NCBI RefSeq assembly: GCF_026210795.1
Contig: NC_089457.1
Coordinates: forward strand, 868,001-932,000
Direction: 5' to 3'
Source of the DNA: Rhizophagus irregularis
Taxonomy: Eukaryota > Glomeromycota > Glomeromycetes > Glomerales > Glomeraceae
DNA length: 64,000 nt
The notes below the pieces were generated by a model that made no database searches, was not told the origin of the DNA, and was given only the letters and a program-made list of their open reading frames with translations. The first letter of the stretch is position 1. The number at the start of each line of letters is the position of its first letter. The position numbers and the translations under genes were made by a program. Below are positions 6 through 39,188 of the stretch, in pieces.

Positions 6-1304
6 AATTTTGAAGATCATACCTTAAGAATGGAAGAACAGGGAGAAATAATAACAATTCCAGTAGGATACGAAAGGGAGGTATATGAAAGTGAGGAGAG
101 CGAAGACGATGAAGAATATGAAAGCAACGATGAAGGAGAGGTATTCAAAATGCACCAGAATTTTAAATAGAGAGTCTTGGCTCTGAAGAGAGAGACGGAA
201 AAGATGCTCGAACCAAGTGAAAAATTTATGCAAAAACTAAGTATAGGGAAAGTAGAAGAACCAATTTGGGAAAATATGGTAAAATTACTATTAGAATACC
301 AAGATATTTTGGAATATGACGGGGAAATAGAAGGAAGAACAAAAGCAGCACAACATGAAATAAAGATAAAAGAGGGGGTAGAACCAATAAAGCAAAGAAG
401 ATACAAAGAAACAGATGAAAAGGCAAAATTTATAAGCGAAGAAGTGGATAAATTGTTAAAACAAGGAAGGATAAGGAAATCAAAAAGTCCATGGAGTTCA
501 CCGGTTACGTTAGCAGGAAAGAAAACGGGCAAATATAGATTCTGTATTGATTATAGAAAGTTAAACAAGATAACTATAATGGATAGTTTTCCTTTACCAA
601 GAATGGATGAATTATTAGACAAATATAGAAAAGCAAAATGGTTTTCAAGTATAGATTTAGCAGCAGGATTTAATCAAGTAGAGATGAAAGAAGAAGACAA
701 AGAAAAAACAGCATTTGTATGTTCGAAAGGATTGTTTGAATATAATGTAATGCCGTTCGGTTTAACGAATGCACCAGCAACATTTCAAAGATTAATGGAT
801 GAAATATTAGAAGAATACATAAACGATTTTGTGGTAGTATATATTGACGATATTATGATATATTCAGGAAATTTGAAAGACCATATGGAACATGTGGAAA
901 AAGTATTAAAGAAGTTACAGGAGAATAATTTGATAATAAAATTAAAGAAATGTAGATTTTTGGAAAGAAATATAGAATTTTTAGGACATATAGTAGGAAA
1001 TGATGGATTGAGGCCGGACGATAAAAAGATAGAAAAGATAAAAGAAATGAAGGCACCAACAACGGTGAAAGAAGTAAGATCATTTTTAGGACTTTGTTCA
1101 TATTACAGAAAATTTGTGAAGAATTTTTCAAAGATAGCAAGACCAATAAGCGACTTGAGAAAGAAAGGAGTACCTTTCATTTGGGGAAAAGAACAACAAG
1201 AAGCGTTTGAAAAATTAAAAGAAAAGTTAATACAATATCCAATATTGCGACATCCAGATTGGAAGAAAGAATTTCTATTAATAACAGATGCATCAGGGAA
1301 AAGG
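6..1304 (+). pseudogene. pol: Pol fragment: acidic linker and Ty3/gypsy reverse transcriptase
   Basis: An open frame runs from position 6, is broken by TAG at 168-170 and continues in the same frame to the RNase H junction. The first part is a very acidic linker (SEESEDDEEYESNDEGE). The RT part shows the classical gypsy blocks: RKSKSPWSSPVTL, YRFCIDYRKLN, PLPRMDELLD, FSSIDLAAGFNQV, the MPFGLTNAPATFQRLM block and the catalytic YIDDIMIYS box, then FLGHIV and the SFLGLCSYYRKF thumb/connection. The frame ends early at 1334 because of one extra base in the A run at 1299-1302. Beyond it the peptide TDASGKGLGAVLS is restored only in the next frame. No ATG precedes the RT, which is normal for an internal polyprotein piece. 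Confidence 0.92.
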
Positions 1305-1650
1305 ATTAGGTGCAGTATTAAGTCAAAAAGATGAAAAAGGAAAAGAAGTAGTAATAGCATATGCAAGTAGAAGTTTATTACCAGCAGAAGAAAATTACCC
1401 GATAACAGAATTGGAATGTTTAGGAATAGTTTGGGGAATTCAACATTTTCATAAGTATTTAATCGATAGAAAATTTAAAGTAATAACAGATCACAGTGCA
1501 TTAAAAGGATTAATGAACGCAAAAATACCGAAAGGAAGAAGAGCAAGATGGGTAATGGAATTACAGCAATATAATTTTGAAGTAGTACATAGGTCGGGAA
1601 AAGAAAATACGAACGCCGACGCACTAAGTAGATTATTGAAGATAGTGGAG
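1288..1650 (+). pseudogene. pol: Pol fragment: Ty3-type RNase H domain
   Basis: Continues the polyprotein in the frame shifted relative to the RT. The four acidic RNase H positions are visible: TDAS (just upstream, in the RT frame), ITELE, TDHS and NADALSR. The blocks IAYASRSL, FKVITDHSAL and FEVVHRSGKENTNADALSR are standard for gypsy-type RNase H. The domain runs without a break into the kinase-like domain annotated next, in the same open frame (1288-2286). Confidence 0.9.
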
Positions 1651-2286
1651 GAACAACCAGAAATAGTAATAATCGATGGAGTAGACGGATTGGGAAAAAC
1701 AAGTATAGTACAAAATTTAATTAAAGAATGGGAAGAACAAGGATTAAAAGTAAGATTCAATACTTATAAAAGAAGAAGAAAAGATAAAGATGAATTTCAC
1801 GAATCGAAGATGGATACAGAATGGAAATTCAGAAAAGAAGTAGTGGAACAAATAAATAGAAGAATGGTAGAATACGATGAAGATACAGATATAATAATTT
1901 TGGACAAATCACCATATTGTGAATATTATTACCAAAAGACGAAAAGTTTTGACAGAGGATTAATTACTCCACATGGAAATCATGAGATGGAAAAAGAAAT
2001 ATTCAGATTGAAAGAAACAATAGATAAATCAATAGTGATATTTTTAGAAAAAGATGGCGACGTATGTTGGAAAAATTACATTGGAAGAGAAACAAAGAAA
2101 ACGGAAAAATCATCATATCCAACATTAAAAAAGGATGAATATTTGGACATGGTTAGAATGTTTGAAGAAAATCAGGGTGTGTACAAAGATACTAAAAGAT
2201 ACAGTCGAGTAAAAGTTAAAAATGACAATAGTAGTTGGAGAAAAGTATTTAAAGAGGTGGAGAAATGGAGAAGAGCACAGAACTAA
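1651..2286 (+). CDS. Thymidylate/deoxynucleoside-kinase-like P-loop domain inside the gypsy polyprotein
   Basis: About 205 residues in frame with RNase H, starting at PEIVIIDGVDGLGKTSIVQN. The Walker A loop is GVDGLGKTS. A second motif, IIILDKSPYCEYYYQK, fits the DR/DxSxY substrate motif of thymidylate and deoxynucleoside kinases. A later IVIFLEKDGD strand followed by NYIGRETKK fits the hydrophobic strand plus arginine lid. The end (DEYLDMVRMFEE, then WRKVFKEVEKW) matches the C-terminal helices of the family. These kinases phosphorylate dTMP or deoxynucleosides, so a role in local dNTP supply for reverse transcription is inferred. The frame stops at 2284, before the integrase. A linker of about 30 residues is open in another frame (2282-2370), so one or two indels are likely here. 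An alternative is another P-loop NMP kinase. Confidence 0.75.
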   Translation, partial: EQPEIVIIDGVDGLGKTSIVQNLIKEWEEQGLKVRFNTYKRRRKDKDEFHESKMDTEWKFRKEVVEQINRRMVEYDEDTDIIILDKSPYCEYYYQKTKSFDRGLITPHGNHEMEKEIFRLKETIDKSIVIFLEKDGDVCWKNYIGRETKKTEKSSYPTLKKDEYLDMVRMFEENQGVYKDTKRYSRVKVKNDNSSWRKVFKEVEKWRRAQN

Positions 2287-2346
2287 AAATACAGAACACA
2301 TAACGAAAATAACAAATTTAGAAGCGAAATCAATTAAAGAGGTATT

Positions 2347-3573
2347 ATGGAAGAAAATAATTACAAGAGAATAATTGACAATATCAAAAAGGAGAATAAA
2401 TATGAATTGAAAGAAGGAATTCTATATAGAGTAAAAGGACAAAACAAATTTAGAGTAATCAGGGATTATGAATACGAAGGATTGATGTATATGATGCATG
2501 ATAACGAATTATCAGGACATTTTGGAGTAGAAGCGACATTAGATAGAATAAAAGAAAATTATTGGTGGAAAAATATGAAAGAAGATGTAGAAGAATATGT
2601 AAAAACGTGTTGGAATTGTCAAATGAGAGGAAAACCAAGAGGAAAGAACGAATTAATGCCGATAAAGATAAATGAACCATTCGAGATGATTGGAATAGAT
2701 ATAGTTGGACCATTAAAAGAGACAGAAAAGGGAAATAAGTATATTGTAGTAGCAATGGATTATTTTACAAAATGGCCCGAGGCCGCACCACTAAAAGAAG
2801 CTACAGCAAAAGAGGTAGTAGAATTTATTTGGAGGGACATAATTTGTAGACATGGATGTCCAAAGAAAATAATTAGCGATAGAGGGACTCACTTTAACAA
2901 TAAAATGATGGAAGAATTAGTAGAAAGGTGTGGAATAAACTATAGATTAAGTACACCATATAGGCCACAAACAAATGGTCTGGTCGAAAGATTCAATAAA
3001 ACTTTATGCGAAGGATTAGCCAAATTAGGAGAAGAAAATTGGGATAAACATATACCATCTGTATTATTTGCATATAGGACAAAGAAGCAATCATCAACAA
3101 GAATTAAACCTTTTTATGCAACATACGGAAGAAGAGCAAAACTACCATTAGATAAAGACGAAAATAAAATAACATTAACTGATAGAATAAAAATATTAAT
3201 TGAAGAGCTACCGGTAATAAGAAGGAAAATAAAAGAAAATGTGAAAGAAGCTCAAGAGAAACAAAAACAACAACATGACAAAAGAGGAATTAGAAAACCT
3301 AAATTTGAAATAGGAGAAAAAGTATTATTATATGAAGCATGGAGAGAGAAACAATGGTCTGGAAAATTACAGAGCAAATGGAAAGGACCATATTTAATTC
3401 ACGAAGAATTTGGAAATGGAGCATACAAACTTAAAGAATTGGATGGAAGAATACTAAAAACACCACAAAATGGAGAATGGTTAAAGAAATTTTATGATCG
3501 AAGGGGATTTACACCAAAAATAGTAATTAAAGGAAAAGAGGTATTCGATAAGACCCGAGTTCGATTCGATTAA
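2347..3573 (+). CDS. pol: Ty3/gypsy integrase
   Basis: A 408-residue open frame. The N-terminal HHCC zinc domain is seen as HDNELSGHFG...CWNCQMRGK. The catalytic core has the D,D(35)E triad: GIDIVGPL, ISDRGTHFNN, and the glutamate in YRPQTNGLVERFNKTL. The C-terminal GPY/F module (KWKGPYLIHEEFGNGAYKLKELD) is intact. The integrase inserts the element cDNA into the genome. It is in the same frame as the kinase-like domain but separated by two stops. The ATG at 2347 may not be a true start, since integrase is normally released from the polyprotein. The integrase reading frame itself has no break. Confidence 0.93.
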   Translation: MEENNYKRIIDNIKKENKYELKEGILYRVKGQNKFRVIRDYEYEGLMYMMHDNELSGHFGVEATLDRIKENYWWKNMKEDVEEYVKTCWNCQMRGKPRGKNELMPIKINEPFEMIGIDIVGPLKETEKGNKYIVVAMDYFTKWPEAAPLKEATAKEVVEFIWRDIICRHGCPKKIISDRGTHFNNKMMEELVERCGINYRLSTPYRPQTNGLVERFNKTLCEGLAKLGEENWDKHIPSVLFAYRTKKQSSTRIKPFYATYGRRAKLPLDKDENKITLTDRIKILIEELPVIRRKIKENVKEAQEKQKQQHDKRGIRKPKFEIGEKVLLYEAWREKQWSGKLQSKWKGPYLIHEEFGNGAYKLKELDGRILKTPQNGEWLKKFYDRRGFTPKIVIKGKEVFDKTRVRFD

Positions 3574-3649
3574 AATTATTATGAATGAGACCCGAGTTCG
3601 ATTCTTTTAAAGTTATTTGTGAGGTCACAAATAGCGAAGAGGGGGATAA

Positions 3650-4900
3650 TGTAAACGGCCGAATATCAAGCATGAGAAGATGATAAAACACCACCGCCAA
3701 ATGTAATTATCAAGTATTAAGAACGAACAAATTAATCGTGGATTGGTGTGGATGGATAAATAATTAGCCGAAAAGGATAAACATTTAAGAAGAGTAATGA
3801 TCTGCATGATGTAATATTTATTGAATGATTGACAAAGAACCAATAGGATAAATAGAGTCGATCATTTGCGGCTTAGCGATCTTTAACAATGAGAACGATA
3901 AGAAAGAATAATTATAAGCCACAAAAGATAGATTATAAGCAAAACACATAAAGTGGATTAAAAGAATATATAAAATAATGTCGGAAAGATTGGAGAACAC
4001 AAAATAATATAAAGGATAATATGAAAAGATGGCATAAAGATGGAATATAAAAGATAACATATTAAAAAGAATATATATAAAAGATAACACAGCCACAAAA
4101 GATGAATTATATCTTTACGACATAATATTTGAAAGATTATTTAAAGAAAAGGTAGCACAGCCATAAAAGATGGGTTATAAATTATTTCTTTGCGATGTAA
4201 TATTTGAATAATAGAAAAGATAACATATAAAATAATATAAAAGATAGCATATTAAAAGATAGCGTATTTAAAATATAGATAGTATATTAGAAAGATAGTT
4301 CAAAGATAATATGTAAAGAACATAAAAGATAGTATATAGATAGAATAGAAAATAGCATAAGAATTGTATATATAGAGAACGGAATTCAAAGTAATTCCAT
4401 AGTTCTCATCCACAGAACTCAATAAAAATATAAGTTTCATTTAATTATTTGTTAATGAAGTTTAATGTTAATTAAAGGTAATAGGTTCGCCCTAAACTTT
4501 AATTAATGTTCGCTTAATTAATTTTAATTAAACAAATGAAAATGTTAAGATGAATTAAATATATGTTTTTGAAAAGTAATAATTCGTAGCGAGAGCTATC
4601 GAAGTTTGAAATTAAAGGTAAAAGTGGATATAATTTGGGGAAAATTTAGAGAAGTTAATTTTATTTTATATCATTTGATGTTTTATATTACAACGCTATT
4701 TATGTTGTGAACCAAGAATGTTGTTGTATATTGACGTGTATTGTTCGGTGATTGTGTCGCTTGTTAATTATGTTGTTGATTAATCGCTTGTTCGTTTAAT
4801 TGTTCGTTCGTTCGTTTGTTTGTTCTCATTCGTTCGTTCGACCATGAGAATGCCCGTTCGATGTGGCAACCTTGTAAATTGATGACAGGGGGAATTGGGG
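3650..4900 (+). mobile_element. 3' long terminal repeat of the gypsy element (end uncertain)
   Basis: Begins with TGTAAACGGCC directly after the polypurine tract. It is purine-rich. Two imperfect direct repeats of about 75-80 bp are visible near 4089-4208; both carry CACAGCCAYAAAAGATG and a later TAATATTTGAA. A GTTCG/GTTTG microsatellite lies at 4797-4845. The right border was not fixed: the window has no 5' LTR for comparison and no clear 5-bp target duplication. A CA-ending position near 4880 is one candidate; the TA-flanked element at 4945 is an outer limit. Confidence 0.6.
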
Positions 4901-4944
4901 GATCTCAACGTACTCGTACTTTTATCCAATTTTGATATTGGCTA

Positions 4945-22116: not shown

Positions 22117-25100
22117 CTAATTATTAGCGACTCCGTATAGCGATAAATAATTGTCAGTAGCACCGATTGCCATGACCATATGATGACCTGCAAGAGCTAA
22201 CGAAGTAACTTGAGCACCCCATCCAAGAAATCCAGTGTTATATCGAGTAACTGATAGATTTGCTCCAGTATTTGTGTTCCAAACCTTTATAAGTTGGTTG
22301 GAATAAACACTAAAAATTTTTGATGAATTAATAAAATATTTAAACTATTATTATATATTATATATCAAAAGAAACAAAAAACCACGTTAAATTAATATTA
22401 CCTAGCAACAACATTTGCATGATGATGAACATCCAATGCATTCATTTCGGAAGTATTGGAATCAAATATAGTGAGTTTTGAATGGCTTACTCGAATGTCC
22501 CATAATTTAATTTCGCCTGACTTGCTTCCTGAAACTAATTCACGTCCTGCCCCACTTTGCCATACAACTTTAGTTATAGTATTTTTGTGCTCTTTGCTAG
22601 TCAATATCATGGCGTCTCTAGGTTGAATACGCTTATCATATACACGAATTGCTCCATCTGCAAAACCAGCGACAAAAATATCTCCCCCATCACTTGTAAG
22701 ACTAGTAATTGGACTACCGGTTCTAGTAGGAATAAGCTAATAAAAAGTATCTTATGTCAATATTTAATAATACAAAATTATAATTCAAATTATTCACTCA
22801 CATTTATCGTAATTTCACGTGGTGCATCCCAAACTCGAACCATATTATGGTCTCCTCCAACTAACAAAACCCCACGATCTTGTTGCCACTCAGCAACAAG
22901 TCCACTTCTTTGGTTGTTAGCCATAATTTCTGGCATAGCACGCCATGATGTTACTAATTCTGTAGATGACGGTAAACTATAATTTCGATATATACGTACT
23001 ACACCATCGCCTATTATAGCAAATTAAAGGAAAAAAAGATAGGTTTAATACTTTGCAGAAATTAAAAAAAAAATAAGAAATTAAAAATTTTGTACTTGAT
23101 CCAGTCAATAACATTGAAATTTCGTCTTCGTTGATAAATTTTAATGTCGTTATTTTGCTACCAAGCGGATTTCCATTAGAAAAGGAATGTGTATTGTAAT
23201 GTTTTCTCCAATTCCAAACACTATCATAACAAAGATTATTCAATTTTGTTTAGTATAATATTTAATTACATATCAAAATACCAATATATATTAAATACTT
23301 CACCTAATCATATCTTTGTCGTTAGCAACAATTAAATGCGGTTCGAATTGGTGAAATAATAATCTTGTAGGTTCAGAATCATTATTAAAAAATGCAATTT
23401 GCTTATTCCATCGACTTGAACCTTGTAACGATGGAACAATATGTTAGCGCAATTTTAAATAAACAATAAATTAAATTTTTATTATCTATATGTACAAACC
23501 AGCTACTTCTTTTAATGGTCGAGTCGATTCGATTATACTTTCATTTCTCCTTCGACGCCATGATCTTTCATTATCATCGATGCTACCCTGTTGTTCAGAT
23601 TCAGCGGGCTTTAAAAAAAAAATAATAAATTAAATTTTAGTCAAATTAAGGGAAAAAATTATTATTTTTTTATATAATAATATATTTACTCTCATTTGAG
23701 GCTCTCGAAAGTATTCGCAACTCCAATCAAAAAATTTTGATTTGAGAGGTAACACACCATCTGCTGGGGGAGGTCTATTTAAAAACTGTCGAAAAGTTTC
23801 AGACTCCTGTGAACTCTGTTCTTGTAAAACTTGCCGTATAGTCAATGCAACATTTTCGGCATGATGTGACTCTAACAACTGATCATGAATATAATCAATA
23901 ACCGTTGATGCAAGCTGAGAAACTTCAACGTCAGGGTCAGCTGATAAATTCAATAGTGCTTTCCAAATACACGTGTATACGGAACTTGATCGAACTGCTG
24001 GTTGTCGTGCCGTCGAGTTTCTCCTCCGAATTTCCTGTAATTCCTCATAAGCGGCACGTGTAAACTGTTCAGCATATGCATTTACTATGTGAGAAAGAGC
24101 GATCACTAATTCTCGACGGACTATAGGGGAAGCATCATTAATGGCATCAAGAGCACTAATTGCTATATTCTGCTCAATATTAACGATTTGTTCAGTGCGA
24201 TTCAAATCACCAATAAAAGTTCCTAAAGCATAAAGTGCTGCAGCACGAACTTCAGGAACTGGATCCAATAAAAGATTAAAAAGTTTTATATGGGCTTGAT
24301 TTTCAATACCCTCGCTCTTTGCATCTACATAATTAGTCCAATATTGACCGATACACAAACAGGCCCATTGTCGTAAAAGTGCGTCAACGTCACTAATACG
24401 AGCTAAACATGCATGTAAAACATTAGCTTTTTTACATGCGACTTGTCCTTGATTAAAATTTGTACAAAATATTGCTAAAATAAAAGAACACATTGCACGA
24501 TGTTCAGATTCATTTTGAATATTTAACATACTACTAGGAGACAAGATATTCACAAAATAAGTGTAACCATTGTCCTTTAATAAATCTTGTTGACAAGACC
24601 TATCAACAGCCAAAATTCTAGTCCAAATAAACACCAAAGGAGGTTTCAAATCTGCAGCAGGACTTTGTAGTAATTTTAACACGTATGGGAAGATACCTAT
24701 TGACAATGCCAAACTAACAGCACGAGGTCCTAAATCCAAATATTTACTTAATAAACCTAATGCTCGAGATCTATGTACTTGACTAAGAAGTACTTGTAAC
24801 ACTATTGGTAATTGTTCAGGTGGTTTTAGCGAAACCGAACCTCTTGATAACCAAACTTGGAATGCTGTTAATTGTTCATCAAAGAAACTAGAGTGTTTAT
24901 ACTCAACCTCCGGACCTCCATCATCAGCATTTAAAAGTGCTGGTAATTGTGCTAAACACATGTCAACAGCAAGATCCCATGAGTCCCACATAGGATGATC
25001 GTAAGTGGGCGGTAATTGAGGATGAGACATGGGATTACATTGATAACGTCGCATGATCCTTTCCGCCAGCAGAAAATTTCTAAACAACGCAGCAACCATG

Positions 25101-26080
25101 AGATCTTGTCGAAATAATTGTTTAAATAAATCTCGGGGTAATACATTCCAAGCAATGGTATCGGTAATAGCTGTAAAAATCCAATTTAATTCTCCTAATG
25201 GTGTTCTGCGATCTTGTAATCTACCAGGAAGTTTCAATACCATATCAACCGTAAGAGATGATGGTAAGGGATTTTGTAAAACAAACCACCTTAAAGCTAT
25301 TTCTATTGGAGAAGTTAAACATGATGTAAATAAATCTGCTGGTAGATCAGGATGCATCGGTAAGGTTTCATTGGGTCCACAAGCAGCCAATTGAATATTA
25401 GGAGGCGCTTGTGGAGTTGAACTTGATTCAGCTCTAGCAGCTTCTATATATCGTTGTTCCGCAAAACGTTTAAAACTTTCTAAAATATTTCCTGCAGCAG
25501 AACAATCATAAACGTAAACACATGGAGATCCTAACCATGATTGTAAGTCACCTAAAGACACTGGAATGTATTGAGTAAAGTGTTTATTAAAACACCATAT
25601 TTCTCCACTTGCTGTTGGTTTAGGGACACCATGACCATTATAATGAAATAATATTCGTTCTTCCTTTGCACTCTTTCTTAAATTTGTACAAAACTTTTTC
25701 ATCTCGTCTACTGAAGGATCTAAATATTGTCTATATCGAGTTCTAATGCTGAGTTGTTCATATTGAGCTTGAAGATTCTTACCAATTGCGTCCAAAGCTT
25801 TTGCCGGAGGAAGGGCAAAAGGGTCAACCCAACATTCTAATTTAGCACAAGGGCTCGGTTTAACCACGTCTGGTGGGTCTACGCCAATATTTAAACACAA
25901 AACTAAAGCACCTGATACAGTCTTAAGTCTTTCACGCATTCTCCAATCTTGAACCGACCCTTCCTCTCGGTTCTGAACAGTTGTAGAAATATGTCGTTTC
26001 TCTGTATAGTATACATATTTAGCCTCCGTCGTATTCGTTTGATCAATTTCATTAGTTCCACTAATTGCATCTTGATCCAT
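22117..26080 (-). CDS. KOG1: Raptor homologue, TORC1 scaffold (Kog1/Mip1 type)
   Basis: Recruits substrates to the TOR kinase in TOR complex 1. Seven exons on the minus strand: 26080-23690, 23608-23500, 23421-23304, 23220-23096, 23010-22802, 22736-22402, 22309-22117, giving 1159 residues with all phases consistent. The raptor N-terminal conserved, caspase-like domain is at about 45-260: DWRMRERLKTVSGALVLCLN, DPSVDEMKKFCTNLRK, ILFHYNGHGVPKPT and YVYDCSAAGNI. HEAT/armadillo-type helices fill about 400-720 (for example LDPVPEVRAAALYALGTFIGD). The C-terminal exons encode WD40 repeats (SVWNWRKHYNTHSF, SDGVVRIYRNY, DHNMVRVWDAP, GEIKLWDIR), ending in GVANN. It is somewhat shorter than the roughly 1300-residue animal and fission-yeast proteins, mostly in the linker before the WD40 part. 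Exon 1 holds two thirds of the protein. Confidence 0.96.
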
Positions 26081-27774
26081 TGTCCCTTCAAAAGTTAACG
26101 CAGATCTTCTGCCTATTACTAATATTACTATTATTATCTGTTTTTTTCGTTTCGTTCGTCAATGAATATACAAAGTAACGTATTAGTTTTGGAATTAAAA
26201 TCCAAAAATAACATTAGAATTTTAAATCGAACTCCAAAGAATGAAAAAAAAAGATTTTTTTCTATGGAGTCTCGAGAATTGATCATCAAATATTTATACC
26301 AAATAATTAAAGTCATATGATTTACCAGCTATAATTTATTAAGATCATATCTGATTGAGTGTGATTAATAAACTCGTATCATATGCCAAATACAGAAATA
26401 CAGCTTCAACTATACCAGAATTAGTATTTATGAACTTTTGGTGAAATCTGGAAAAGTTGATAACAATCTATAAGATCAAATTTGATTATATTTGAAACGA
26501 ACCGTAAAAAAGCAACCTGATCTAACACAATTACAGATTAGCAATATAGTAAGTGCATAATTAACGTTTATTTACTGCGGATATAAAGATATTGGGCTGA
26601 ATAAGGAATTGCGCACAATATTGTGTTTCCATCTATTATGATCGTTAAATTTGGATATGATCAATTTTTCTCAATTTTTGATTTATTACAATTAGTTAGT
26701 CAATAAATATTAAAGTTTCTTTATTTATAAATAGAATGATGACACCTATTTTATGCACGAGAGAATTGTCTGTCTACACACGGTGTGACGCATATTCACC
26801 TAGAACTTACTTATGCTAGATCCAAGCAAATAATTGCTTTATTCCAATAGAGATTGATAATTTATTAATATATCTCTCTTTATTACAAAATCTTTAGTAA
26901 CAAGATACTATAAAATTTAATAGAAAGTATTTATCAATAGTTACATTTAATATTTTTGAATTTAAGTCGTGAAAAAAATAACGTAATATTCATAATATTT
27001 CGTAAGAAAAAAAATTCATTAGATAATCAAATTACACTTGAACTTATTTGACTAATCATAATTTAAAATTAAGTTTTAAAATTCGAAAAACTGATAAAAT
27101 TGGCAAAAATATAAATTTTATTAAGTACTTTGCTGACGAACTTTATATCATCAATCAAAACCGCAAAACAAGAATAAATTTAAAGGAAAGCCGGATTCTA
27201 TGCTTTTATGAGAAAAACATTATATTATCATATATATATATATATATTGTAATATCGGCATCGTGGCACTGTGGTTATGTAGTCATCTTGCATGCTTTAA
27301 ATTTGGTGCAGCATTATATATATATGATGATTAGATTTCTGTAATTCGCGTTTGCAGAAATAAAATCCTCGTCGGTAAAAAAATATAATAGAGTGAATAG
27401 AAATAAGTGTAATGATGTTGTTGAGACATAATTTCGGAGGTGTGTTTGGTTATCTGCGTTAATAGAAACAAACTATCCGTCCGGAATGTCTTGCATTAAA
27501 TGGAGCTTATTTCCCTCTTTGAAAGCGGTGACATATATTCTGTTTACTTTTTCTTATACTAGTATAAATTTCTAATTATTCTACGTACAGTATAAGCATA
27601 CAGCGCAAAAATAATAAAAGCATGTGAAAATTAACGTTTTTTTTTAAACTAAATTAATATGGATTTTTTTGGAGCGTCGATTATTCCTTTAATCGTTTGG
27701 ATTCCTTAGTTACTACAGTCCCAACGTACCACATGATTCCGCCGGTTCTTTAGCAACTTCGTTCACTGGTATAT
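26081..27774. other. Intergenic region upstream of raptor
   Basis: AT-rich. Several small frames are not supported by composition or motifs. A TA dinucleotide run is at about 27230-27247. The sequence GTGGCACTGTGGTTATG (27265) resembles a tRNA A-box but no B-box follows. Confidence 0.45.
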
Positions 27775-28687: not shown

Positions 28688-31263
28688 TTACTTACCATTT
28701 ACTCCTAGTGCTTTTAATCTTTCTTTGGCTTTTTTATCATCTTTTAATGCAGCTCGTTTATACCAAAGTTTTGCCATTTCTAAATTTTGAGCATAACCTA
28801 AATTTCCATTATAATATCCTTCTCCTATTTGAAATTGTGCGCTTCCGCTGCCATTTTCAGCAGCTATTCGTAAATATTTAACAGATTCTTCTTTAGAATT
28901 GGTTTGAATTTTTGATTTTATATCTTTATCAAGTAAAGCAAATGCATAACGATATTGAGCATCAGTAATACCATCATCAGCAGCCTCTTTATATAATGCT
29001 AAAGCAGCTAATTTGTCTTTTTGATTGAATAAACCCCCCCATAAATAGAAAGCCTTCCAATATTTTCCAAGACTATTTTGATTTTCTGCTTGTTCATTAA
29101 AACATTTCCATGCTTTTTCATGATTTTTTTCCTTATATGCTTTTACACCTTCACTAATTGGAATCAACGGCTCAAAATCAACATCAATATTACTAAAATC
29201 AACATCATCGGGGATTTCGTCACCCTTATCATTTAGTGAATTGGAAGGTATATCAAAATTCGCAATTTCTTGAGGTTCAAGGCCTGGCGAACAACCAGGT
29301 TTAACATACTTCTTAGATAAATCATCTAATTGAATCAATAACTTCGTAATGCTTATACGAATATTAGGATCTTGATTCCAGGCTTCAATAAAAAAAAAGT
29401 CAAGATACTATTCAGTTCTTAAAATAAAATAATTATTTTTTATATGAATAGTGATTTACCTTCTTTAATTATTTCTTCAAATCCTTTTTGGATTTTAGCA
29501 TCAGATGAATCAGGTAAAGCAAGACTATTTTCAAATTGAATTTTTTCTCTTTCACCACTGATCACATGATCTAAAATATCTTCAAGTTCCATATCTTCAT
29601 AGGGTTTTCTTTCAAAAGTTAATTCCCATAAGAGCATTCCAAAGCTACAAACAAATATATAATATTTTTAGATAATATTTATGGTGTATAAAATTAAAAA
29701 TTAAATGTTTCTAAATATACCTAAAAATTTCACATTTATGATCATAGCGGTATTTAGGATCTATTAATTTTTCAGGAGCAAGCCAACGACCATCTTCAAT
29801 TCGACCAGCCATTGATGTGCTCGTATGATCTTTTCCACGAGAAAAATAAAAGTTTGTCAATTTTGCTACGTTTCTTTCTGTTACCTTTTTTTTTTAAAAA
29901 AAATAAATTTTGATTTCATCGATTGTTATGTATGCAAATTTAGAAAGAAAAGAATGATCATACCATTACATTACTGCATTTCAAATCATGATGATAAATA
30001 TTTAATGCGTTTAAATAGGCGACACCTCGACAAATATCAAGTGCATAAGATAACTATAAAATGCAGAAAATACAAAAAATATAGCGTGACATAAAATTTT
30101 AAGACGATAAAATTTAAGAAAAATAGTGAGAAGATATTAACAAACCTTTAGTTTCAAAGGAATTAAAGGAATTTTGTTTTCTTTGTATAGTTCCCTTAAA
30201 CTTCCAAGCTCGGCCCATTCTAAAACCATAACTGTAGCACCATCAATAATTGAAAGCCCGTAAAATTGAATAATATTTGGTGATTGAGTAGCTTTTATAC
30301 AAATAGCCAAAAACCGTTGCGTAATTTTATAATCAGGAGAATCTTCTTCAGGAATATTAATAGCTCTACAAGCTACTTCAATAGCATTCATATACATTCT
30401 TCTTTTTGTTCTTCCCCGAAACCCACGCGTATCACTCTGTCTTCCTACTACTGGTTCGGTTAATTTATTACTATCTATTCTTTTCGTCTCATTAATTTCA
30501 GACTTTGATATCATTGATTTTATATTTTGAACTTCTTCATAAATGAGGGACATTTTGATACTATTCTCTTCGATATTATCACCAATTTTTTCGAGAAACT
30601 GATTTTTTTAAAAAAAAAATTTATCAAATTAAATTAATTAACCATATGTAAAATTATTATAAAATAAAAATTAGAAAATAAAAAGAAAAGAAATACGACC
30701 TCATTCATTTCACTTAAATCAGCTTTCAAACTTTCACTATCAATTTGTCTTTGTTGATCATTGGCAATAGCCATAGTAAAATTTAAATCTTTCATAGCAT
30801 TATCGTAATCATCCATAAGTAAATTAAACTTTTCTGAAACACTTCTAGCTTTAAAATAAACTTTAAATCCTTGTAATTGTGAAACTTTTTCAGCGAAAGT
30901 TTTAATTTTACCTAAAATTACAACGAATCTATTAAATGCATGATACCATACTTGACTTTTAAAATTTTTTTCATTTTCTTTTCTTCTACGAATTAATTGA
31001 TCGATTGCGATTTCTGATAATCTTGCTCTATCTAATAGTGAATTACAAATCCTTTTATTATATTGTGAAGTTTGATATATATTTATTATTTCTACAATTG
31101 CAGTGGCAGCTAATCCAATTAATGGTATAAACGGTGTTATAGCCTCGCCTGCTTGAGCTGTTATCTGAAGTGCTTCTTTTGCGAAAGCTAAATTTGACGA
31201 TTTTATTTCATTTAACCCTTTTGTAACTTCTATCGCACCTTCTATAGCATCTGTTACTGTCAT
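28688..31263 (-). CDS. MLKL-like four-helix domain / TKL pseudokinase / Sel1-repeat protein, copy 1
   Basis: Six exons: 31263-30700, 30598-30146, 30053-29964, 29884-29721, 29644-29460, 29382-28688, giving 716 residues with consistent phases. Residues 1-188 are all-helical with a hydrophobic hairpin (AGEAITPFIPLIGLAA...IYQTSQYNKRICNSLLDRA), like the N-terminal four-helix domain of MLKL-type proteins. Residues about 225-470 are a TKL kinase fold: WAELGSLRELY, IYHHDLKCSN (358-367), RWLAPEKL, LLWELTFERKPYEDM. The beta-3 lysine is arginine (VACR, R266), DFG is NFY (380-382), and no glycine loop is visible, so it is a predicted pseudokinase. The C-terminal part has about four Sel1 repeats. The terminal stop overlaps GTAAGT, so a further exon cannot be excluded. 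A role in immune- or self-recognition-type signalling is inference. Confidence 0.85.
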
Positions 31264-33304: not shown

Positions 33305-34851
33305 TCATTCCCAATCCACATTTTCGTCATCAAAATCTTCAGGGATGACGAATTTATTAATATCCTTTTCTGAAAGAGATAAAATCCTACTAGTATGATA
33401 AGTCTGATTTGTCGGCTTATTAGCTTTTCGAGATCCTGAATAAGTTTTCTTTTCATTATCATATGCAATACTTAATTCTTCAGTTTCAAGAATTTGTCTA
33501 TATTGATATTTAATTACATCAAGGATTTCTTCAATAGTTGGCCTCTTCGAAGGATCTCCGTTCCAGCATCGCTTAATAAGGCTTTGAATTTCATTTGGAA
33601 TCTCGGATAACATTGGTGGTCTCAAGCCAGAGATAATGTTAGAAATAGTCGAAAGATCGTGGGGAATATCATTAAATGGTGGAAATCCACCAAAAATCTC
33701 CCACATCAACATACCAACACTATATATATCACTTGCTTTTGTATATTTCTGAAGTAGGAATAATTCAGGAGCCATGTATGGAACAATTCCATACAATTTT
33801 CTTACATTATCATCGTCTACTGGACCGCATAATCCCAAGTCAGCAATTAAACATCTATTTGTATATAAAAGGATGTTCCCACTATGCAAATCGTAGTGAA
33901 CCAAGTCTTGAGCATGAATATCTGATAAAGCAAAACAAATTCGCCAAATGGCGAACACTTTTTCTTTCAAACTCATTGTTTCATGATTCTTTTCTAAATA
34001 ACTTCGTAAATTTCCTTCGCCAAAATAATTCATAACTATAGCGTAATTGCCATCTTGAGGAAATTTTGTAATGCCATATGCATTAACAATATCACCAGAT
34101 CTAACATTGACAAGTGCTTTAGCCTATATAAAAAAAAAATAGAAATAAAATATATCGTTTATATCCTAAATATAAAAACACTGAACGTATAAAACATGAT
34201 ATATACCTCATCAAAAAACTCTTTAGTGGGTTGTTTTGAATTGTTTAAAGATTTAAGTACAACCTTATGAGAACCCTGATAAATAAATTCTTGTTTGCTT
34301 TCATTCCAATCTAGTATTGCTCCCCGTTTCCACTTTGCAGTATATATTTTAGCAAATCCACCATCTGCTAAGTATTCTACATCTTCAAATTGATCGAACG
34401 AAATCCATTCTATAATATGTAAAGGAAGCGCTGATTTTGACTGGCATTCACGAATGAACTCATCAATAGCTTCGCTTCCAGACGCCCAAGTTCCAAGGAG
34501 ACTTTTTAAATATTGAATGATGCAATTTTCGCAGTAACGCGTAGAATATCTCGTTAACTTGCAATGAATACATTCAAACGGTTCGCCCCTTTTAAACAAT
34601 TCTTTTTCTCTTTCAATATTCCTGGAAACTCTATCTCGCAAAAGTTCTTTTTCTGGCCGTGAAAGCACAGTATTTTCAGATAACACTTTATTGAAAATTT
34701 CTATGGTTTCTTTATAGTTCGATGAATGTAACTCAGAATAGTAAATAAGCTCAAAGTAAATTTTTGATATTAACTCTTTGTCATTTGAATTTTTCTTAAA
34801 AAAAGAAGAAAAAAAAGAAATTATATATTCAACGAACGAAAGCACATCCAT
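33305..34851 (-). CDS. Tyrosine-kinase-like (TKL) protein kinase, probably active
   Basis: Two exons, 34851-34207 and 34123-33305, giving 487 residues. A helical N-terminus is followed by a short zinc-ribbon-like motif (CIHCKLTRYSTRYCENC, about 93-110) that often precedes the kinase domain in AM-fungal TKL kinases. The kinase domain starts after IIEWISFDQFEDVEYL. Catalytic features present: glycine loop LADGGFAKIY, beta-3 lysine in KVVLK, HYDLHSGN (291-298, catalytic Asp 293), DLG at 310-312 (the DFG position), YMAPEL, and GDPSKRPTIEEIL near the end. The C-terminal tail after YQYRQILE is charged and disordered. It lies between the two pseudokinase genes on the same strand and, unlike them, keeps the catalytic residues. 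No signal peptide or membrane helix. Confidence 0.9.
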
Positions 34852-36640: not shown

Positions 36641-39188
36641 TTACTTACCATCTACTCCTAGTGTCTTTAATCTTTCTTTGGCCTTTTTATCATTTTGTAA
36701 TGCAGCTCGTTTATACCAAAGTTTTGCCATTTCTAAATTTTGAGTATAATTTAATCGACCTTTTGAATAATTTTCTCCTACTTGAAATTGTGCACTCACA
36801 CTACCATTTTCAGCAGCCATTTGTAAATATTTAACAGCTTCTTCTTTAGAATTAGGTTTAATTTTTGATTTTAAATTTCTATCAAGTAAGGAACATGCAT
36901 AACGGTATTGAGCATCTGTAACACCATTATCAGCAGCTTCTTTGTATAATTCTAAAGCAGCTATTTTATCTATTTTTTGATCGAAAAATCCTTCCCATAA
37001 GTAATAGGCCTTCCAATATTTTCCAAGACTATTTTGATTTTCCGCTTGTTCATTAAAACATTTCCATGCTTTTTCATAATCTTTTTCTTTATGAGCTTTT
37101 ATACCTTCACTAATTGGAATTATCGGTTCGAATATTTCGTCAATATCAATCGAATCAAAATCAATATCATCGGGGATTTCGTCACTCTTATCATTTAGTG
37201 GATTTATAGGTATATTAATATCTGCAATTTCTTGAGGTTGAAGGCCTGGAGAACAACCAGGTTTGACAGACTTCTTAGTCAAATCATCTAATTGAATCAA
37301 TAATTTCGTAATGCTTATACGAATATCAGGATCTTGATTCCAAGCTTTAATAAAAAAAATCAAGATATTGCTCAGTTCATTAAAAGAAATATTTATTTTT
37401 TATACAAATAAAGATTTACCTTCTCTAATAATCTCTTCAAATCCTTTTTGGATTTTAGCGTCAGGTGAATTAGGTGAAGCAAGACCTATCTGTTCAAATT
37501 GAATCTTTTCTCTTCCGCCATTAATTACATAATTTGAAATTTTTTCAAGATCCATGTTTTCATAGGGTTTTCTTTCAAAAGTTAATTCCCATAAGAGCAT
37601 TCCAAAGCTACGAACGAATATAAAATATTTTTAATTAAATTAATAATAATGTATCAACGCGTAAAATTAAATGTTTCTAAATATACCTAAAAATTTCACA
37701 TTTATGATCATAACGGTATTTATTGTCTTTTAATTTTTCAGGAGCAAGCCAACGACCGTTCTCAATTCGATTAAAAACTGATGTTGTCCTTCCATCTTTA
37801 TCACGCGAAAGATAAAAGTTTGTTAGTTTCGCTACATGTTTTTCTGTTACCTTTTTAAGAAAAAAAATTAATTTTAGTTAATTTCATCGATTACTATGTA
37901 CCATCTAGTATGAGCGACATACCATCACATTACTGCACTTCAAGTCATGGTGATAAATATTTAATGCGTTTAAATAAGCGATACCACGACAAATATCAAG
38001 TGCATAAGATAACTATAAAATATAAAAAAATACAATAAATACAGCATGCCGTAACTTTTAAGATGACAAAATCGAAAAGATATTAACGAACCTTTAGTTT
38101 CAAAGGAATTTTGTTTTCTTTGTATAGTTCCCTTAGACTCCCAAGCTCAGCCCATTCTAAAACCATAACTGTAGAACCATCAATAATTGAAAGCCCGTAA
38201 AATTGAATAATATTTGGGGATTGAGTAGCTTTTATACAAATAGCCAAAAAACGTTGTGTCATTTTAGAATCTTTTTCAGGAATATTAATAGTTCTACAAG
38301 CTACTTCGATAGCATTCATATAAATTCTTTTTTTTGTTTTTCCCCTACTAGAACCACGCGTATCACTCTGTCTTCCTACTACTGGTTCGGTTAATTTATT
38401 ACTATCTATTCTTTTCGTCTCATTAATTTCAGACTTTGATATCATTGACTTTATATTTTGAACTTCTTCATAAATGAGGGACATTTTGACACTATTCTCT
38501 TCATTATTATTCTCAATTTTTTCGAGAAACTGTATTTTTTTTTAAAAAAAAAATAATAAGTTATCAAATTAATTTATTAGTTATATATTATTAAAATAGA
38601 AATAAAAAAAAAGAGAAAATGCGAAACCTCTTTCATCTCGCCTATATCAGCATTCAAACTTTCATTATCAATTTGTTTTTGTTGTTCATTAACGATAGCG
38701 ATAGTGAAATTTAAATCTTTCATAGCATTATCATATTCATTCATAAGCGTATTAAATTTTTCCGAAACTTTTTTAGCTTTAAAGTAAACTTTAAATCCTT
38801 GTAATTGTGAAACTTTTTCAGCAAAAGTTTTCATTTTATCTAAAATAAAAACAAATCTATCAAACGCATTATACCATATTTGACTTTTAAAATTTTTTTC
38901 ATTTTCTTTTCTTCTACGAATCAATTGATCAATTGCGATTTCTGATAACCTTGCTCTATCTAATAATGAATTACAAATCCTTTTATTATATTGTGAGGTT
39001 TGATATATTTTAACAATTTCTACAATTGTAGTAGAAGCTAATCCAATTAATGGTATAAATGGTGTTATAGCTTCACCCGCTTGAACTGTTATTTGGAGTG
39101 CTTCTTTTGCAAAAGTCAAATTTGATGATTTTATATCATTTAAACCTTTTGTAACTTCTATAGTACCTTTTATAGCATCTGCTACCAT
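36641..39188 (-). CDS. MLKL-like four-helix domain / TKL pseudokinase / Sel1-repeat protein, copy 2
   Basis: Tandem paralogue of the gene at 28688-31263, with the same six-exon structure: 39188-38628, 38529-38092, 38012-37923, 37850-37687, 37607-37420, 37344-36641, giving 714 residues. The four-helix domain (1-187) keeps the hydrophobic hairpin TPFIPLIGLASTTIVEIVK. The pseudokinase again has VACR (R266) instead of the ATP-binding lysine, HHDLKCSN with the loop aspartate (D356), and NFY (374-376) for DFG. The identical losses pre-date the duplication. Sel1 repeats fill about 530-705 (AWKCFNEQAENQNSLGKYWK, NLEMAKLWYKRAALQNDKKA). The stop again overlaps GGTAAGTAA. The two proteins are highly similar, with small indels, so both appear to be under constraint. 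Confidence 0.85.

Follow-up and report, generated by a model that had tools for sequence, protein, structure and literature searches.

Between the RNase H and the integrase of a Ty3/gypsy element, one stretch of Rhizophagus irregularis DNA (64,000 nucleotides, hereafter the window) carries a domain that looks like a nucleotide kinase, which raises the question of whether this domain belongs to the element and, if so, what it might do there. The coordinates are given in Table 1. The domain order reverse transcriptase (RT), RNase H, integrase of Ty3/gypsy elements is present (Pfam RVT_1, RT_RNaseH, Integrase_H2C2, and rve), as are a purine tract and long terminal repeats: window positions 4284 to 4907 match at 91% the repeat that flanks the sister copy L011 on either side, whose terminal repeats are at least 608 bp long (a reach limited by the stretch read) and 98.7% identical to each other. 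The window holds the 3' LTR, and the 5' LTR lies outside it. A preliminary description of the locus had seen an uninterrupted frame running from the RNase H signature NADALSR into a P-loop domain, and such a frame indeed extends over positions 1285 to 2286 (333 amino acids [aa]), open from RNase H onward, without a break at the junction (NADALSRLLKIVEEQPEIVIIDGVDGLGKTS) and with all three of the segments GVDGLGKTS, LDKSPYCEYYYQ, and NYIGRETKK in it. The integrase reported beyond the stops was likewise found, as an ORF with PF17921 and PF00665 matches downstream of two TAA codons. The further idea of a four-enzyme polyprotein held for the fusion of the kinase to RNase H but not for the integrase, which is a separate ORF in the window's lineage. 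A chance open frame was ruled out by stop counts and shuffling: the kinase stretch has no stop in its own frame versus 21 and 19 in the other two forward frames, and it stayed open in 0 of 20,000 mononucleotide and 0 of 20,000 codon-position shuffles. Since the RT frame (171 to 1334) and the RNase H-kinase frame of the window copy differ, this copy is frameshifted inside RNase H and decayed. Locus L009 has a kinase identical to that of the window, within an RT-RNase H-kinase frame of 704 aa, and other copies have these three parts as one frame of 704 to 706 aa.

Table 1. Features of the Ty3/gypsy element in the window and of its kinase domain
Feature	Position	Strand	Evidence or remark
Ty3/gypsy element, 3' part	first 4.9 kb of window		
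Reverse transcriptase ORF (RVT_1), entering start of RNase H	171..1334	+	PF00078, E 9.6e-45
RNase H part of RNase H-kinase frame, terminus NADALSRLLKIVE	1285..1650	+	PF17917, E 1.4e-32
Kinase domain, 211 aa, dNK/thymidylate kinase superfamily	1651..2283	+	
P-loop GVDGLGKT, residues 10-17	1678..1701	+	G10, G15, K16 in 25/25 genomic copies
DKSPYCEYYYQ motif, residues 85-95	1903..1935	+	aligned at DRTP of host dNK
NYIGRETKK, lid-like segment, residues 142-150	2074..2100	+	conserved in alignment
TAA stop directly 3' of kinase	2284..2286	+	sequence
Second in-frame TAA, 5' of integrase ORF	2335..2337	+	sequence; L010 arranged alike
Integrase ORF (H2C2 zinc-binding and rve core; PF17921, PF00665)	2338..3573	+	first ATG 2347
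Polypurine-tract-like stretch, 5' of 3' LTR	3636..3649	+	sequence
3' LTR (TG...CA)	3650..4907	+	left edge inferred: TG next to purine tract

The kinase is present in many other copies of the element, for which the preliminary description had suggested a search. In the genome searched (146.7 Mb, 32 contigs), there are at least 151 kinase matches, and among the 150 listed at least 130 cover 195 or more of the 211 residues; these counts are lower bounds, and in some cases several partial matches come from a single copy. Sorted by their identity to the window, the listed full-length matches form lineages A (57 matches, 92 to 100%), B (21, 84 to 87%), C (15, 59 to 65%), and D (34, 53 to 57%), with 3 others. 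No stop interrupts the kinase in 53 of 57 matches in A, 13 of 15 in C, and 33 of 34 in D, and 99 of the 127 full-length A-D matches are fused open frames. Each of the 21 lineage B matches has at least one stop; in those B copies that were read, this is not a premature stop, as the TAA near residue 208 of 211 is the natural end of the domain. The architecture was read at twenty 10-kb loci. In lineage A the kinase directly adjoins RNase H, and in lineages B and C an extra module of about 75 aa separates the two; in an AlphaFold model of the metagenomic protein P0063 (mean pLDDT of 74, pTM of 0.52, RT part poor), the module and the kinase are both confidently predicted units on the C-terminal side of a disordered hinge (residues 261 to 279). 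The integrase is a separate ORF at A, B, and C loci wherever it is intact. In lineage D, RNase H closes with a stop and the kinase and integrase form one ORF, with an ATG immediately 5' of the kinase (MGPKIIIICGVDGTGK). We considered whether an intron separates RNase H from the kinase in lineage D and rejected this, the length difference of about 229 nucleotides between L024/L025 and L026/L027 having no GT..AG edges; from its sequence, the difference resembles a deletion between short repeats that contain ATGG. Among related proteins, P0070 of Rhizophagus clarus has RNase H, kinase, and integrase within a single gene model, P0065 of R. irregularis is kinase plus integrase, and P0063 is RT-RNase H-kinase. 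None of the 20 loci read keeps all four enzymes in one frame; because the architectures vary in this way among lineages and relatives, the kinase belongs to the element, and it is the ORF breaks that shift around it. At 13 of the 20 loci (L009, L010, L012, L015, L016, L019, L020, and L022 to L027), a gag-like frame of 399 to 1001 aa ahead of RT stops at a TGA and resumes in phase past it for 169 to 212 aa, a candidate case of stop readthrough.

Is the domain maintained as an enzyme? Across 29 aligned rows, 43 positions are invariant, including the P-loop, DK, and lid residues; R146, E147, K149, and K150 are among the lid residues without variation in this alignment. In a set of 25 genomic copies (open copies only, picked from 150 matches to span the lineages), the P-loop, DKSPY, R61, R102, R146, and E147 are unchanged in all 25, as is K150, and K149 is found in 20. 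We take DKSPYCEYYYQ to be the equivalent of the textbook ERS and DRY motifs. Thymidylate kinases follow the motif rule DR[YFH], and the host enzyme has DRY, whereas the family has DKS in 25 of 25 copies. Similarly, a Glu after strand 2 is catalytic in deoxynucleoside kinases (dNKs), and the position aligned to this Glu of the host dNK is Asn37, invariant in the 29 rows. Judging from these motifs, Lys for the conserved Arg of DRY/ERS and N37 at the place of the dNK Glu may indicate an unusual substrate. The same two replacements, together with a fusion partner that varies between RNase H and integrase, would also fit a pseudo-kinase or folded nucleotide-binding module with a structural role, that is, a non-enzymatic part that serves RT or integrase as a spacer or in assembly or targeting. 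A mere spacer would need none of the conserved P-loop, DK, and lid residues, which therefore speak against it, and all 25 of the genomic copies keep the GxDGxGK P-loop and the lid Arg unchanged. Selection on the kinase also argues for the contrary. A dN/dS below 1 had been named beforehand as a sign of function, and codon maximum likelihood (ML) gave an omega of 0.089 for seven representatives of A, A2, B, C, and D (a set without L018, which has a stop), near that of RT (0.078, six representatives); RNase H and integrase gave 0.061 and 0.094 (five each), the sets for these other domains leaving out copies with stops or partial matches. Within single lineages, the codon ML omega of the kinase was 0.078 (A), 0.083 (C), 0.199 (B), and 0.213 (D), and in D it exceeds that of RT (0.036). 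By NG86, the A and B kinases differ by a dN of 0.047 and a dS of 0.640; dS is near saturation between more distant lineages, which makes those NG86 ratios rough. The kinase is thus under purifying selection and is almost certainly a selected part of the element, and we consider a purely structural module unlikely.

Which substrate such a kinase would use is less readily read from profiles. A profile search of the window domain, recommended in the preliminary description, bore out the likeness to thymidylate kinase below the specific thresholds and the likeness to dNK not at all: PF02223 matched at 21.1 and 24.0 (cut-off of 27 bits), TIGR00041 scored 19.7 (cut-off of 83.25), and PF01712 had no match at an E value of 0.1, nor did any dUTPase family at this value. 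Among relatives scanned, the best PF01712 score was that of P0022 over its whole length (21.0 versus 27 bits). In 20 family proteins scanned, the PF02223 cut-off was passed by 5 and that of KTI12 by 6 (P0036, P0024, P0022, P0065, P0010, and P0025), and NPHP3_N, MeaB, NB-ARC, NTPase_1, or cobW passed theirs in single proteins; Pfam hence does not assign the kinase family uniquely to thymidylate kinases. The predicted structure agrees with the original reading, with a fold that is that of thymidylate kinases and dNKs alike. The family shares with thymidylate kinase (PF02223) the predicted fold, the P-loop, and Pfam and PHROG similarity but differs from it in DKS versus DRY. With dNKs (PF01712; the host dNK and dCK/dGK/Dm-dNK) it shares the predicted fold, and its DKSPYxEYFY and FxEPxxxYEW resemble DRTPLSSYFF and FYKEPLKYQY of the host dNK; the Asn for Glu after strand 2, the Lys for Arg, and the Pfam score below cut-off set it apart. 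PDB sequence searches returned mainly P-loop or repeat-protein background, with thymidylate kinases at E values of 0.05 or higher only. Given that P-loop kinases are diverse, that KTI12 is matched as described, and that the acceptor motif is unlike that of either thymidylate kinase or dNK, the acceptor could be another one, such as a nucleic acid 5' end, a tRNA primer, or a ribonucleotide, instead of a dNTP precursor. The top rows of the structure comparison are mostly thymidylate kinases and dNKs, however, and the PHROG name with the best score is thymidylate kinase, so we regard such an acceptor as slightly less probable still than a structural module.

The history of the element supports a kinase that is exchanged and retained. 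Lineage B is similar to C in its RT (82%) and its integrase (85%) and retains the C-like module 5' of the kinase, but its kinase is 90% identical to that of A versus 62% to that of C. Forcing B with C was rejected in the kinase tree (p-AU of 0.0023), and forcing B with A was rejected in the RT tree (p-AU of 0.00018) and the integrase tree (p-AU of 0.0016); a kinase cassette has therefore passed from one lineage to another without disruption of its frame. L021 is also a mosaic, with an RNase H 95% identical to B and with a kinase and an integrase 81% and 88% identical to C. The RT tree (built without L011, where the RT match falls in a neighbouring element) is compatible with a single kinase gain in A-D (p-AU of 0.52, equal to the best tree), the branch setting the kinase-less families apart being weak (74/63), and the kinase may have been lost in L039/L040, the nearest kinase-less relatives (RT, 56 to 58%; integrase, 56 to 57%). 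Among 150 integrase hits scored of 268 candidates, none from lineage D, 91 are preceded by a listed kinase match at a distance of up to 2.5 kb and 59 are not, from which it follows that gypsy elements thrive without the kinase in the same genome; no kinase match was seen at the 8 kinase-less loci read of these 59. At two other gypsy loci, the place between RNase H and integrase is occupied by a different ORF, rich in Cys and His (L045, oriented positions 1860 to 2747; L046, 1740 to 3176), in which Pfam matched nothing, and the RNase H-integrase junction seems, on this evidence, to take cargo repeatedly. By eye, a small frame (...NYHCILFEDKEIKFILPFENEIENLLTNG) looks common to the kinase-integrase gap of lineage C and the RNase H-integrase gap of L039/L040, and it also appears at the end of P0040. 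That the kinase is a host or viral gene fragment hitchhiking without benefit in one successful family, for which the unrelated ORFs of L045 and L046 could be cited, is very improbable in view of the roughly 57% identity kept across lineages at near-saturated synonymous sites, the omega of about 0.09, the 99 of 127 fused open frames, and its presence in three named species.

These species, R. irregularis, R. clarus, and Glomus cerebriforme, are the only organism-named matches from three protein searches, the others being metagenomic or unnamed; all three are Glomeraceae, and the named relatives at 98 to 99% identity are R. irregularis. In the metagenomic protein P0084 (393 aa), a NUDIX domain (24.8 bits; cut-off of 21.1) lies N-terminal to a kinase that is a divergent member of the family. 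The host encodes a CDC8-type thymidylate kinase (C13:3242213-3242981) and a dNK (G000:C28:1224011-1224604; PF01712, 111 to 112 bits). A recent origin from these genes was not favored, the kinase being 22% identical to the host dNK over 110 columns; the host thymidylate kinase was compared by eye, which tests this origin weakly. A host gene at L029 (positions 1 to 2449; G000:C24, around 3288271) has an HMG-box-like stretch (by eye) and a thymidylate kinase-like region (47.9 bits, above the Pfam cut-off) with a degenerate P-loop (LIVLEGCEDTNTT), an apparent HMG-box/pseudo-thymidylate kinase fusion. The searches likewise gave no confirmed phage or bacterial source: P0022 had no tblastn match (E value of 0.01) in 50,697 phage records, pattern scans yielded 3 and 96 stretches in IMG/VR and 109 in GTDB, none confirmed, and among 5.8 billion proteins (E value of 1e-3) a profile search and a search with the P0084 region gave 105 and 43 hits, judged to be of the kinase family only. 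Such searches depend on common words or patterns, which a distant source could escape, and the PHROG match indicates that distant phage relatives exist.

Reverse transcription is limited in resting cells by the scarcity of dNTPs, which hosts exploit via SAMHD1 and which some retroviruses counter with dUTPase or Vpx. The nuclei of hyphae and spores are mostly nonreplicating. With a probability of roughly 0.6 for the whole chain, our reading is that a glomeromycotan Ty3/gypsy group carries a catalytically equipped P-loop kinase of the dNK/thymidylate kinase superfamily that raises the local dNTP supply. The kinase would be produced within Pol, joined to either RT-RNase H or the integrase N terminus, and be packaged with RT in the particle; its substrate would more likely be a deoxynucleoside monophosphate than a deoxynucleoside, and by phosphorylating it the kinase would raise the dNTP supply beside RT for reverse transcription in hyphae and spores. 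With a thymidylate kinase and a dNK already encoded by the host, any gain would be local or confined to resting cells. These host enzymes, the Lys and Asn replacements in the motifs, the window domain's score below the thymidylate kinase cut-off along with Pfam matches of the family to other P-loop families, the frequency of kinase-less gypsy elements, and the higher omega values in the B and D sets count against this dNTP-supply reading.

We propose this role by analogy with the dUTPases of lentiviruses and of fungal and rotifer LTR elements. According to the text available in part of PMC4531489, non-primate lentiviruses (FIV, EIAV, CAEV, and visna virus) have a dUTPase between RNase H and IN that is important chiefly in nondividing cells. 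The likeness is that of a nucleotide pool enzyme taken into pol at a corresponding position; the lentiviral enzyme, however, hydrolyses dUTP and has the dUTPase fold, whereas the fungal domain is a P-loop phosphotransferase and belongs to the RNase H ORF or the integrase ORF. Excerpts of PMC2864245 and PMC5408684 describe dUTPases in Ty3/gypsy elements of fungi (Postia PosPlaTy3) and bdelloid rotifers, which are LTR retrotransposons with a nucleotide metabolism domain in Pol as well, but of another enzyme family and, in those excerpts, placed between PR and RT or at an end of Pol instead of between RNase H and integrase. Capture of a nucleotide metabolism enzyme by an LTR retroelement is thus known, and the kinase class seen here is unreported in the open-licence literature searched, where we found no relevant report of a retrotransposon with a thymidylate kinase or dNK; in the accessible portions of two papers on R. 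irregularis transposons (PMC8647823 and PMC11075540), kinases appear as expanded protein kinase genes. The odds seem to us about even that this is the first LTR-retroelement lineage known with its own deoxynucleotide kinase, a dNTP-precursor enzyme of the particle from a new DKSPY/NTFKRRR subfamily with its own substrate range, traded as a cassette and, in one metagenomic relative, coupled to NUDIX as a supply-and-cleaning module. A retroelement encoding the anabolic side of dNTP supply would represent a separate solution to the dNTP limit, and it would be testable whether transposon activity in coenocytic obligate symbionts is set by nucleotide supply as well as by silencing; in one such symbiont, about half of the genome consists of repeats (PMC11075540, in the part available). 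As a naturally divergent kinase subfamily, the domain would also be of use to enzymology.

Elsewhere in the window, the minus strand carries a Raptor (TORC1) gene with a HEAT-repeat match (positions 23630 to 26158), a protein kinase-like ORF (33305 to 34123), and two Sel1-repeat ORFs (28688 to 29407 and 36641 to 37399), of which one falls just short of the Pfam cut-off.
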